DNA of 21,013 bases, taken from positions 1-21,013 of the IMG/VR virus record IMGVR_UViG_3300042260_000847; one strand, given 5' to 3'. Below, piece by piece: positions 14,998-18,521 of this stretch. The stretch's first letter is position 1. The number at the start of each line of letters is the position of its first letter. The notes under the pieces were generated by a model. The model made no database searches. It had not been told where the DNA came from and was given only the letters and a program-made list of their open reading frames with translations. Both the position numbers and the translations under genes were made by a program. This DNA comes from a virus.

Positions 14998-17568
14998 ATG
15001 ATCGATTTGAACGATGTCTTTGTTGCGCCGCCCCGCCATGATCTGGGCGCGATCAAGGCGCGCCTAGCTGATACGGCCCGAGATTGGCTGCCATCGCTTT
15101 TTCCCGAGGCGCGGCTCACCTATGACAAGCGCGCCTTGCGTTGCGCCGATCTGTCCGGGCGCCGCGCCCGTGGGGAGGGCTCGTGCATCATTCACCTTGA
15201 TGGCCCTTATGCCGGGTGGGGGTTTGATTTTGCGACAGGCGAGCGGGCCGGCCCGATCGACATGATTTACCATGCCACAGGCCTGACGGAGGGTCGGCTT
15301 TTCGATGAAGCGGCGCGGTTGGCGCATCTGGAGCGGGATCTGACCAACAGGCCGCGGCCCATGACGCAGCCGCGCCCTGATCACAGTCTGGAAATTCGCC
15401 GCATTCTGGAAGATTGCGAACCGCTGGCGGGCAGCGTCGCGGAAACCTATCTGCGCGCGCGTGGGCTGCCTGCTCCAACCTCACCGGATTTGCTGTTTCA
15501 TCCGGATCTGACCGATTACGACAGCCGCCGGGGCTGGCCTGGAATAGTGGCGATCCCGCGTTTGGCAAATGGGGAAGCTGTCGGCGGCATTCACCGCACC
15601 TTTTTGCGCGATGATGGTCGCGGCAAGGCGCCAGCGGGCAAAAAGATGCTGGGCACGATCGCAGAAGGAGCGGCTCGGTTGTTTCCGATGCCTGAGGATG
15701 GTCATCTTGGCGTGGCGGAGGGGATCGAGACCGCGTTGGCGGCACAGGCCATATTTGGTACGCCAGTTTGGGCGGCGCTCTCGGCCGATGGGCTGGCAAG
15801 GTTCAAATGGCCGGAGGGTACGCGTCGGGTCACAATTTACGCCGATGCTGGGGATGTCGGGCGGCAGGCTGCTGCGACACTCTCGGATCGTCTGAACATC
15901 GCCGACATTCCGAATGAAATTCTGCACCCGCTGCATGGCGATGATTTCAACGACGATCTGCAGAAGGGGGTAACGCAGGCGGATTACGCCGCTGTGGCCA
16001 CGTGCGCTGACGCATTGCCTGCCATTGATGCCCGCGGTGAAGACGCCACAGTCGGTAAGCCTGACAAACCTGCGGAGGCTCTCTCCAGCGCCACCGAGGC
16101 GCTGTCAAACCCACCGGATTTAACAGCCCTTGGCACGCTGATGGGGCGCATTGTCAAAGCGCGGCTCGAGCCGATGGAAGAACGTCATGTGCTGTCCTTG
16201 GTCAAGGCGCGCAGTGGCATTGCCATGTCGATCCTCGAAAAGCAGCTTGGGGTATTGCGGCGGCGGCTCAGCAGCACGGGTGATCTTACGAAACCGACTG
16301 TGCGCCCGGCTTGGGCGAACCGACTGAGGCTCGATCTGTCTGGCACGCCGGAGCGCAACGAGGCCAATGTCATCATAGCCCTCACCTCAGACGCGGCCTT
16401 CGCGGGTACCATCGCGTTCGATGAATTCCGTCAGGAAGTGGTCTTGATGCGCGCCGCCCCCTGGGATGAGGCCGAGTGTGTCTATCCGCGCCCGTGGGAG
16501 GACAGCGACGATATTCGGCTCGCCGAATGGCTGCAGCACCGCGAGGTGAATGTGGCCCCGCTCGTCGTGGGGCGCTCTGTGGGTGCCGTTGCGCGCGAAA
16601 CCCGTATCCATCCGGTGCGCGCCTATCTCGATATGCTCACATGGGACGGCACGTCGCGCGTTGAGGCCTGGACCAGCCGTTATCTCGGCGCCGAGCCCAC
16701 CGATCTGACCCATGCCATGGGCAGCCTGTGGCTGATCTCGGCGGTGGCACGTGTTTATCGCCCGGGCGTGAAGGCTGACCACATGCTGATCCTCGAAGGC
16801 GAACAGGGCGCGCGCAAATCCACCGCGCTGAAAATTCTCTCAGGCGAGGATTGGTTTACGGATGAGTTGCCCGACCTTGGCTCCAAGGACGCGGCCATTC
16901 ACATGCAGGGTGTCTGGATTGTCGAAATCGCGGAACTCGACGCCATCGGTCGGGCGGAGGTCTCGCGCATCAAGGCTTTTCTAACTCGCACGACAGATCG
17001 GTTTCGGCCGCCCTATGGTCGCCATACCGTCGAGATCAAGCGGCAATGCGTCTTCGCGGGCACCGTCAACCCCGACACCTACCTGCGCGATGAAACCGGC
17101 AACCGCCGTTTCTGGCCGATCAGGTGCGGCACCATCGATATCGAAGCGCTGCGCCGGGACCGCGATCAGCTTTGGGCAGAGGCCACGGCGCGGTTTAAGG
17201 AAGGGGCAATTTGGTGGATTGAGGACAAGGATCTGCTGAAATCTGCGCGTGAAGAGCAGGATAAACGCTACCAGTCCGATGCTTGGGATGGGCTCATTGA
17301 ACACTGGTTGACGCATGAGGTTTGTGTGGTGGGAGGCAGCTATTCATCCTTCGATCCCCCACGGCGTGAAAGCGTTCCGCGTCGGGTACCGAAACGCGAT
17401 GTGTCTGTAGGTGAGATATTGGAAGAAGCCATCGGCGCCGAACCGGCAAGATGGACCCGTACGGATCAGATGCGGGTGTCTGGGTATCTCAAGAAGAAGG
17501 GCTGGGAGCGCTATCAGCGACGTGAAGGTGACGAGCGAGAATGGCGATATCGTTGGCCGACCGAATAG
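14998..17568 (+). CDS. TOPRIM primase fused to VapE-type helicase
   Basis: The 856-residue protein starts eight bases after the helicase stop. An N-terminal segment (about 20-115) carries GPYAGWGFDFATGERAGPID, as in primase DNA-binding parts. The TOPRIM-like domain is at about 235-320, with VAEGIETALAAQ (Glu241) and IYADAGDVGRQAA (Asp283, Asp286). A linker leads to a C-terminal VapE domain. That part has LTWDGTSRVE (547-556), a Walker A variant EGEQGARKST (600-609), IVEIAELDAI as Walker B (641-650), AFLTRTTDRFRPPYGR, and the sensor-like FAGTVNPDTYLRDETGNRRF. VapE proteins are superfamily 3-like helicases. Fusion to a TOPRIM domain makes this a one-protein primase-helicase for starting replication, next to the iteron array at 17630. 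A terminator follows 30 bases after the stop. Confidence 0.88.
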   Translation: MIDLNDVFVAPPRHDLGAIKARLADTARDWLPSLFPEARLTYDKRALRCADLSGRRARGEGSCIIHLDGPYAGWGFDFATGERAGPIDMIYHATGLTEGRLFDEAARLAHLERDLTNRPRPMTQPRPDHSLEIRRILEDCEPLAGSVAETYLRARGLPAPTSPDLLFHPDLTDYDSRRGWPGIVAIPRLANGEAVGGIHRTFLRDDGRGKAPAGKKMLGTIAEGAARLFPMPEDGHLGVAEGIETALAAQAIFGTPVWAALSADGLARFKWPEGTRRVTIYADAGDVGRQAAATLSDRLNIADIPNEILHPLHGDDFNDDLQKGVTQADYAAVATCADALPAIDARGEDATVGKPDKPAEALSSATEALSNPPDLTALGTLMGRIVKARLEPMEERHVLSLVKARSGIAMSILEKQLGVLRRRLSSTGDLTKPTVRPAWANRLRLDLSGTPERNEANVIIALTSDAAFAGTIAFDEFRQEVVLMRAAPWDEAECVYPRPWEDSDDIRLAEWLQHREVNVAPLVVGRSVGAVARETRIHPVRAYLDMLTWDGTSRVEAWTSRYLGAEPTDLTHAMGSLWLISAVARVYRPGVKADHMLILEGEQGARKSTALKILSGEDWFTDELPDLGSKDAAIHMQGVWIVEIAELDAIGRAEVSRIKAFLTRTTDRFRPPYGRHTVEIKRQCVFAGTVNPDTYLRDETGNRRFWPIRCGTIDIEALRRDRDQLWAEATARFKEGAIWWIEDKDLLKSAREEQDKRYQSDAWDGLIEHWLTHEVCVVGGSYSSFDPPRRESVPRRVPKRDVSVGEILEEAIGAEPARWTRTDQMRVSGYLKKKGWERYQRREGDEREWRYRWPTE

Positions 17569-17598: not shown

Positions 17599-17629
17599 GG
17601 GGCGTCCAAGCTGGGCGCCCCTTCGTTTT
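17599..17629 (+). terminator. Rho-independent terminator of the early operon
   Basis: GGGGCGTCCA (17599-17608) pairs with TGGGCGCCCC (17612-17621) across an AGC loop, ten pairs including one G-T, followed by TTCGTTTT. It lies 30 bases after the primase-helicase stop and ends the long rightward operon. Confidence 0.9.
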
Positions 17630-17893
17630 GTCACCAACCCGTAACTGTCACCGACCTCGGTGAAGGATGGTGACCGGAAAAATGATTTAAAAACAACGCT
17701 GTCACCAACGTCACCAACCTAACGTCGATCTTCTACTCTTATCCATATATGTGTGTGTTTTCTCTCCTGTACCGCTCTCTTCATACATACAAAGTATTTG
17801 GTTGGTGACGTTAGTGACGTTGGTGACAACATTGTTTTTGCAGGGTAATTTTTGTCACCAACCCCCCTATGAGGTTGGTGACAGGTTGGTGAC
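17630..17893. repeat. Iteron-like array of 9 bp repeats, candidate replication origin
   Basis: GTCACCAAC lies at 17630-17638, 17701-17709, 17710-17718 and 17854-17862. Its complement GTTGGTGAC lies at 17801-17809, 17819-17827, 17874-17882 and 17885-17893. One-mismatch copies are at 17647-17655, 17666-17674 and 17810-17818. The tandem pair at 17701 and the triple at 17801 are inverted, forming a 19 bp near-perfect inverted repeat around an AT-rich core. That core holds TTATCCATA (17739-17747), one base off the DnaA box. 17854-17882 can form a 10 bp hairpin. No credible gene overlaps. Confidence 0.75.
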
Positions 17894-18002: not shown

Positions 18003-18521
18003 ATGAACACAGAAAACCTGATCCCCGCTCAGCCGCTGCCCAATGCTTTTGGCGGCGCGAAAGCTATTCTCGCGCTTGATCTCGGCACGACCACTGGTTG
18101 GGCGTTGCGGGGCTTGGACGGCCTGATCACCAGCGGTACGGCAAGCTTCAAGCCCGGCCGCTACGACGGCGGTGGTATGCGCTACCTGCGGTTCACGAAT
18201 TGGCTGACGGAAGTCGACCGCCTGTCCGGTCCGATCGCCTCCATCTGGTTCGAAGAAGTGCGTCGGCACGCGGGCACTGACGCGGCCCACGTCTACGGCG
18301 GTTTGATGGCAACACTGACCGCCTGGGCCGAGTTGCGCGGCATTCCCTATCAGGGTGTGCCCGTTGGCACGATCAAGCGCCACGCCACCGGCAAGGGTAA
18401 CGCGCCGAAGCAAGCGATGATCGCCGCCGCACATCAGCGCGGGTTCAGCCCGGCCGACGACAATGAGGCGGACGCCATTGCCATCTTGCTCTGGGCCATC
18501 GAGACTGGAGGGCTGGCGTGA
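18003..18521 (+). CDS. RuvC-like Holliday junction resolvase
   Basis: The 172-residue protein has an RNase H-fold core: Asp26 in ILALDLGTTTGWAL, Glu84 in IWFEEVRRHAG, and a C-terminal acidic cluster ADDNEADAIAILLWA with Asp152/Asp153 and Asp157. These are the expected metal ligands of RuvC-type nucleases. VYGGLMATLTAWAE and VPVGTIKRHATGKGNAPKQ match the region of phage RuvC-like enzymes. It probably cuts four-way junctions, or branched replication intermediates before packaging. The ATG at 18003 has only a weak GAG ribosome site. It is the first gene after the repeat array and begins a second rightward group; its stop overlaps the following start. Confidence 0.85.
   Translation: MNTENLIPAQPLPNAFGGAKAILALDLGTTTGWALRGLDGLITSGTASFKPGRYDGGGMRYLRFTNWLTEVDRLSGPIASIWFEEVRRHAGTDAAHVYGGLMATLTAWAELRGIPYQGVPVGTIKRHATGKGNAPKQAMIAAAHQRGFSPADDNEADAIAILLWAIETGGLA

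Follow-up and report, generated by a model that had tools for sequence, protein, structure and literature searches.

Introduction

The closest described systems are the origins of the staphylococcal islands (SaPIs), which are served by the self-loading helicases Rep and PriRep. The C-terminal domain of SaPI Rep recognises iterons directly downstream of its own gene (PMC7581432), and at SaPI origins repeats in opposite orientations load two head-to-head helicase hexamers (PMC9894130). In SCCmec, direct repeats that immediately follow the cch2 gene are bound in vitro by the C-terminal domain of its product Cch2, also a helicase of the self-loading type (PMC7581432). At the SV40 origin, large T antigen likewise places two opposed hexamers on origin DNA (PMC9894130), as in the model proposed below, although its binding domain is unrelated and N-terminal (PMC7581432).

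The window analysed here, 21,013 bases of a virus record, has iterons downstream of the gene for a candidate initiator helicase of the VapE type, as in SaPIs and just downstream of cch2. It differs from the SaPI origins in belonging to phages of alphaproteobacteria and not to staphylococcal islands, in the fusion of the helicase to a DnaG-type TOPRIM domain, in a fixed grid of 11-12 slots that persists while the repeat unit changes, and in a residue-to-base code that is visible across the VapE clade. It differs from SCCmec in that only three 5 nt iterons have been described for Cch2, which is a helicase of the D5/Primase_Cterm family. The alpha protein of phage P4 is a primase, helicase and origin-binding protein that works with short repeats; two distinct sites, ori and crr, are required in P4, whereas the window shows one two-armed site. 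The SV40 origin holds a few pentamers, against the 11-12 units found here. To our knowledge, the origins of most VapE-type phages are unmapped, and a full-text search of the open literature, with subscription papers outside its scope, found no paper on VapE and iterons together. As the testable features of SaPI-like origins were found and no such paper was, the array belongs to a known kind, and its code is unusually clear; what is new is the clade, the grid and the natural code of specificity.

Results and Discussion

The repeat array and its gene neighbourhood

The early region carries, in order, genes for an integrase and a CI-like repressor, Sak4-like and Cas4-like genes, a Dda-like helicase gene and the TOPRIM-VapE gene (vapE, positions 14998-17568, plus strand). 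The 856 aa VapE product, a TOPRIM primase-VapE helicase and the proposed initiator, was assigned to the Pfam families VapE-like_dom (4.5e-84), Toprim_3 (7.8e-26) and DUF7146, and to the PHROG category DNA helicase/primase. Its only relative in PDB by sequence was PriRep1 (7pds, E 4.3e-47), which matched the helicase part, so that homology to the SaPI helicase was found. The vapE operon ends in an intrinsic terminator (17599-17621, plus strand) with a 10-pair stem followed by a T-rich tail; 0.7 such terminators were expected by chance in the scanned region. The array begins directly behind it, as stated in an earlier note on this DNA, with the first unit starting at 17630, and a RuvC-like gene (18003-18521) lies beyond.

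That note had described eleven copies of a 9 bp unit, GTCACCAAC/GTTGGTGAC, at 17630-17893, eight exact and three with one mismatch, and both the count and the coordinates were confirmed. The left arm comprises the outer iterons 1 and 2 (17630-17638 and 17647-17655, plus strand), an inverted copy, iteron 3 (17666-17674, minus strand), and the inner iterons 4 and 5 (17701-17709 and 17710-17718, plus strand). After a core at 17719-17800, the right arm continues with the inner iterons 6, 7 and 8 (17801-17809, 17810-17818 and 17819-17827, minus strand), an inverted copy, iteron 9 (17854-17862, plus strand), and the outer iterons 10 and 11 (17874-17882 and 17885-17893, minus strand). Iterons 2 (GTCACCGAC), 3 and 7 each carry one mismatch, and the remainder, from iteron 1 (GTCACCAAC) on, are exact. 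Iteron 2 is exact in the relatives L010, L014 and L009, the last from Thalassovita litoralis DSM 29506; the slots of iterons 1 and 3 are kept in relatives, and since relatives occupy the slots of the imperfect copies at 17647, 17666 and 17810 too, these are regarded as real sites. The inverted repeat of 19 bp formed by the facing units, with its single mismatch, was read directly from the sequence, again as described.

Matches with at most one mismatch numbered 15 in the whole window against 3.7 expected, 11 of the 15 being inside the 264 bases, and none of 100 shuffles reached 15. No second array of the same unit was found elsewhere in the window. Nor is the unit a repeat that is common in hosts: the host genomes of relatives hold scattered single copies, and the clusters found adjoin vapE. 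A blastn comparison of the array region with plasmids gave no match; an RNA element was also considered and set aside, as the region had no Rfam match.

Conservation of the arrangement in related phages

About 110 VapE relatives, drawn from genome contigs and viral contigs, were compared. A literal search for the 9-mer found it in only some of them, and a motif-blind search disclosed 7-12 copies of some short unit at nearly all loci with enough DNA, in clusters that span 200-290 bases downstream of vapE. The units vary between phages (TCACCAAC, TCACCAC, TCCCAC, TCCAAC and others) and are uniform inside each array; because of this change between phages, a search with fixed GTCACCAAC would miss most relatives.

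The positions of the copies are near-constant across phages with different units. Counted from the first copy, the left arm has plus-strand copies at 0 and 17, a minus-strand copy at 36-38 and plus-strand copies at 69-71 and 78-80; beyond a core that is AT-rich and spans about 85 bases, the right arm has minus-strand copies at 170-173, 179-182 and 188-191, a plus-strand copy at 223-224 and minus-strand copies at 242-247 and 256-262. None of the eleven slots is empty in the window array. A twelfth is present in some phages, which gives two arms of six, and the full 6+6 pattern is seen in L096. A mirrored left-arm partner was found for 0.38 of the right-arm sites, against 0.13 for random placement (0/5000). 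The arrangement of the array is conserved in relatives and its spacers vary, the outcome by which the earlier note had proposed to judge the origin reading. A chance or low-complexity repeat without function, which has nothing but the shortness of the unit in its favour, can practically be dismissed in view of the shuffles (0/100) and of a grid that is kept across about 100 phages despite changed units.

An array was missing from the fetched 4 kb in 22 relatives; 19 of these have matching units elsewhere in the record, mostly just beyond, and the other three are short fragments. Matching units likewise lie outside the fetched stretch in L027, L031, L033 and L065, and in some phages the array is up to 4 kb from vapE.

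A further cluster, built from another repeat (GGTTTCCA or GGTTACC) that is present 7-9 times within about 160 bases, lies 2.5-3.2 kb downstream of vapE in Rhodospirillales loci; measured from the vapE end, it is at about +2836 in L071, +2797 in L072, +2489 in L169, +3220 in L170, +2838 in L171 and +2899 in L174. This other repeat forms the strongest cluster in some of these loci, of which L169 and L174 carry the canonical array as well.

The AT-rich core and GC skew

The core (17719-17800), the proposed melting site, is 62% AT against 41% for the window, in keeping with the earlier description of it as AT-rich. An AT excess of the core over the locus was found in 48/48 relatives (mean +18.5 points), so that opposed repeat sets surround an AT-rich region in the window and in relatives alike. 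The site one base off the DnaA box that had been pointed out in the core, TTATCCATA, is present in the window, but a DnaA box is not conserved: the cores of the 48 relatives gave no exact box and two within one mismatch, with 0.75 expected by chance. The conserved DnaA box expected of a DnaA-dependent iteron plasmid origin of the RepA/RepE type was not found, and the candidate initiator encoded beside the array belongs to the VapE helicases.

Within the core, TTATNCATATA followed by TGTGTNTTT forms a motif at about 17740-17760, which recurs at the same place in L009, L010, L013 and L014. It is common to close relatives and not to all unit classes, and is possibly the melting site.

The 21 kb window itself shows no switch in GC skew at the array, probably because only 3 kb lie to the right of it, but the switch proposed for this position was found in longer records. 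In all 14 prophage records examined (42-58 kb), the skew is lower in the 10 kb left of the array than in the 10 kb right of it. The rise across the array occurs with either orientation of vapE and ranks at percentile 0.81-0.98 of positions; in 5/14 records the cumulative skew minimum lies no more than about 1 kb from the array.

These data bear on the possibility that VapE binds the array for control (autorepression, copy number control like that by P4 crr, or handcuffing) while the origin is elsewhere. Iteron arrays can serve as control sites, and this one follows an operon terminator and stands as far as 4 kb from vapE in some phages. Mirrored arms around an AT-rich core, a skew switch at the array and the lack of a second same-unit array in the window speak for the origin, and a pure control site is judged improbable.

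Residues of VapE that predict the repeat unit

With the unit written as X-CCA-Y, three residues of VapE were found to follow its variable bases. In a first set of 72 nonredundant pairs, from which three loci that fit no unit class (L071 among them) were left out, all 22 proteins whose unit has X=A carry Q at residue 840 and all 50 others carry R or K there, while residues 821/828 are K/G in 33/33 proteins with Y=C and another combination in 39/39 with Y=A. The rule was recorded first and then applied to loci fetched afterwards: a readable array accompanied 38 of the 44 new nonredundant proteins, and each of the 38 followed the rule. In the combined set residue 840 predicts X in 110/110 and residues 821/828 predict Y in 104/104 nonredundant pairs, these perfect counts covering arrays whose unit could be read as CCA-centred (or CCT-centred), with exceptions set aside after inspection. 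The units of L218 and L182 were parsed by hand. In the window the three residues are Arg821 (codon 17458-17460), Ser828 (17479-17481) and Gln840 (17515-17517), all encoded on the plus strand. In protein-DNA contacts, Gln commonly pairs with adenine, and Arg or Lys with guanine.

The exceptions are as follows. Six new proteins were set aside: for L207, L195 and L191 no array with at least five copies was detected, and for L170 the canonical array was not found. In L171 the unit (TGGACCCAT) obeys the rule at X and violates it at Y, which is T in both L071 and L171. L203, whose VapE shares 63% identity with the closest first-set protein, has the unit TGTCACACG, without CCA, at +1079 to +1365 from the vapE end and may represent a further specificity class. 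Y is degenerate in L201 and L204, and these two and L304 have no defined Y.

Independence of the observations was assessed on a tree built from VapE residues 14-760 only, that is, without the C-terminus. This tree requires at least 12 changes of X and at least 26 of Y, and the phylogenetically independent pairs agreed with the rule in 10/10 cases for X and 21/21 for Y. Among 540 variable VapE columns scanned, 840 was the sole perfect column for X and 821/828 were the best for Y; the best-scoring columns lie mainly in the C-terminal domain.

Since vapE and the array are mostly adjacent, recombination moves both together, and co-variation with the unit was examined for vapE alone among the genes. 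The array might accordingly be the operator of another phage DNA-binding protein, its tie to VapE being mere linkage of neighbouring DNA. Linkage would tie all C-terminal residues alike, whereas the association is clearest for three of them, which lie in the predicted recognition helix and wing; moreover, the same residue-base rule is followed by arrays located 1.8-4 kb from vapE and by Pseudomonas phage U5, whose VapE is 38% identical. We consider such an operator very unlikely. Still less credence is given to a packaging, recombination or partition site. Repeat clusters mark such sites too, and the array is followed by the RuvC-like gene; neither a terminase nor a ParB gene was identified next to the array, the co-variation points to a helicase as the binder, and two arms, an AT-rich core and a skew switch fit replication.

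The C-terminal domain of VapE

Residues 770-856 (17305-17565, plus strand) form the proposed iteron-binding domain. In the AlphaFold2 model (pLDDT 83.9) these 87 residues are arranged as strands and helices in winged-helix order, with residue 821 opening the recognition helix, 828 two turns on and 840 in the first wing strand. Fold comparison matched the PriRep1-dsDNA complex to the C-terminus, with a middling fit of 2.8 A over 65 residues (Z 4.6). A Foldseek search with the domain gave no significant match (best E 0.54) and only middling winged-helix matches. In the full-length VapE model, pLDDT is below 50 over most of 620-703, which is part of the helicase.

Up to about residue 720 the VapE proteins of L040 and L050 share 97-100% identity, which falls to about 40% over part of the C-terminal domain; their arrays carry different units (TCCCAC and TCCCCAAC). 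Similar swaps were seen in L103/L131 and L017/L122. L157 and L159 show little difference, yet have Q and R, respectively, at 840 and units TCACCAC and TCCCAC. Because C-terminal swaps accompany unit swaps, the VapE C-terminus and the origin appear to travel together, and judged by the co-variation the C-terminus very probably binds the repeats.

The phages supply a natural series of initiator-origin pairs that includes near-identical proteins with switched specificity, which makes the joint change of an initiator and eleven scattered sites directly testable.

A further proposal, which we put forward tentatively and hold at somewhat under even chances, is that the C-terminal winged helix and the origin are an exchangeable specificity cassette, swapped or re-tuned by selection for private origins, while the 12-site grid stays constant because it fits two hexamers. 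Private origins, if they exist, would avoid cross-talk with co-resident prophages or satellites. On the same reading, the three-residue code (821, 828, 840) would let the origins of many VapE phages be predicted from their protein sequences.

Proposed initiation of replication

The conserved array, the non-host nature of the repeat, the direction of the skew (14/14) and the co-variation with the VapE C-terminus uphold the origin reading of the earlier note. On these grounds, which are those of sequence analysis, the array is with high probability the replication origin of a temperate phage, bound by the VapE C-terminus according to a two-hexamer model. The reading that suits it best is that of a SaPI-like origin, with VapE probably bound as two hexamers in opposition. 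One VapE subunit would contact each 9-12 bp unit through its C-terminal winged helix, and one hexamer would gather on each arm, the two facing each other; one hexamer per arm is the simplest model, as two mirror-image arms of five or six sites flank the core. The facing hexamers would then melt the AT-rich core and move apart as a bidirectional fork pair, which the fused TOPRIM domain may prime.

More distant VapE-type phages

A predicted origin is gained in this way for a large group of alphaproteobacterial phages, and a sample of 17 VapE-type phages of other hosts (staphylococcal phage records were left out) was inspected as well. In nine of the 17, arrays of other units lie at most 800 bases downstream of vapE and score above all 100 shuffles, namely in Marinobacter PS3, Pseudomonas U5, Corynebacterium CL31 and Dina, APSE-1, Dulem virus 37, RcAqua, Paenibacillus Rae2Bee1 and Lactobacillus phiJB. 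Shewanella phage SFCi1 (L324) has up to nine copies of a 7-mer elsewhere in the locus and not downstream of the VapE-like gene. Pseudomonas phage U5 has K, G and R at the three code positions, as read by eye, and its unit, CTGTCCCAC, is the one that the rule predicts.
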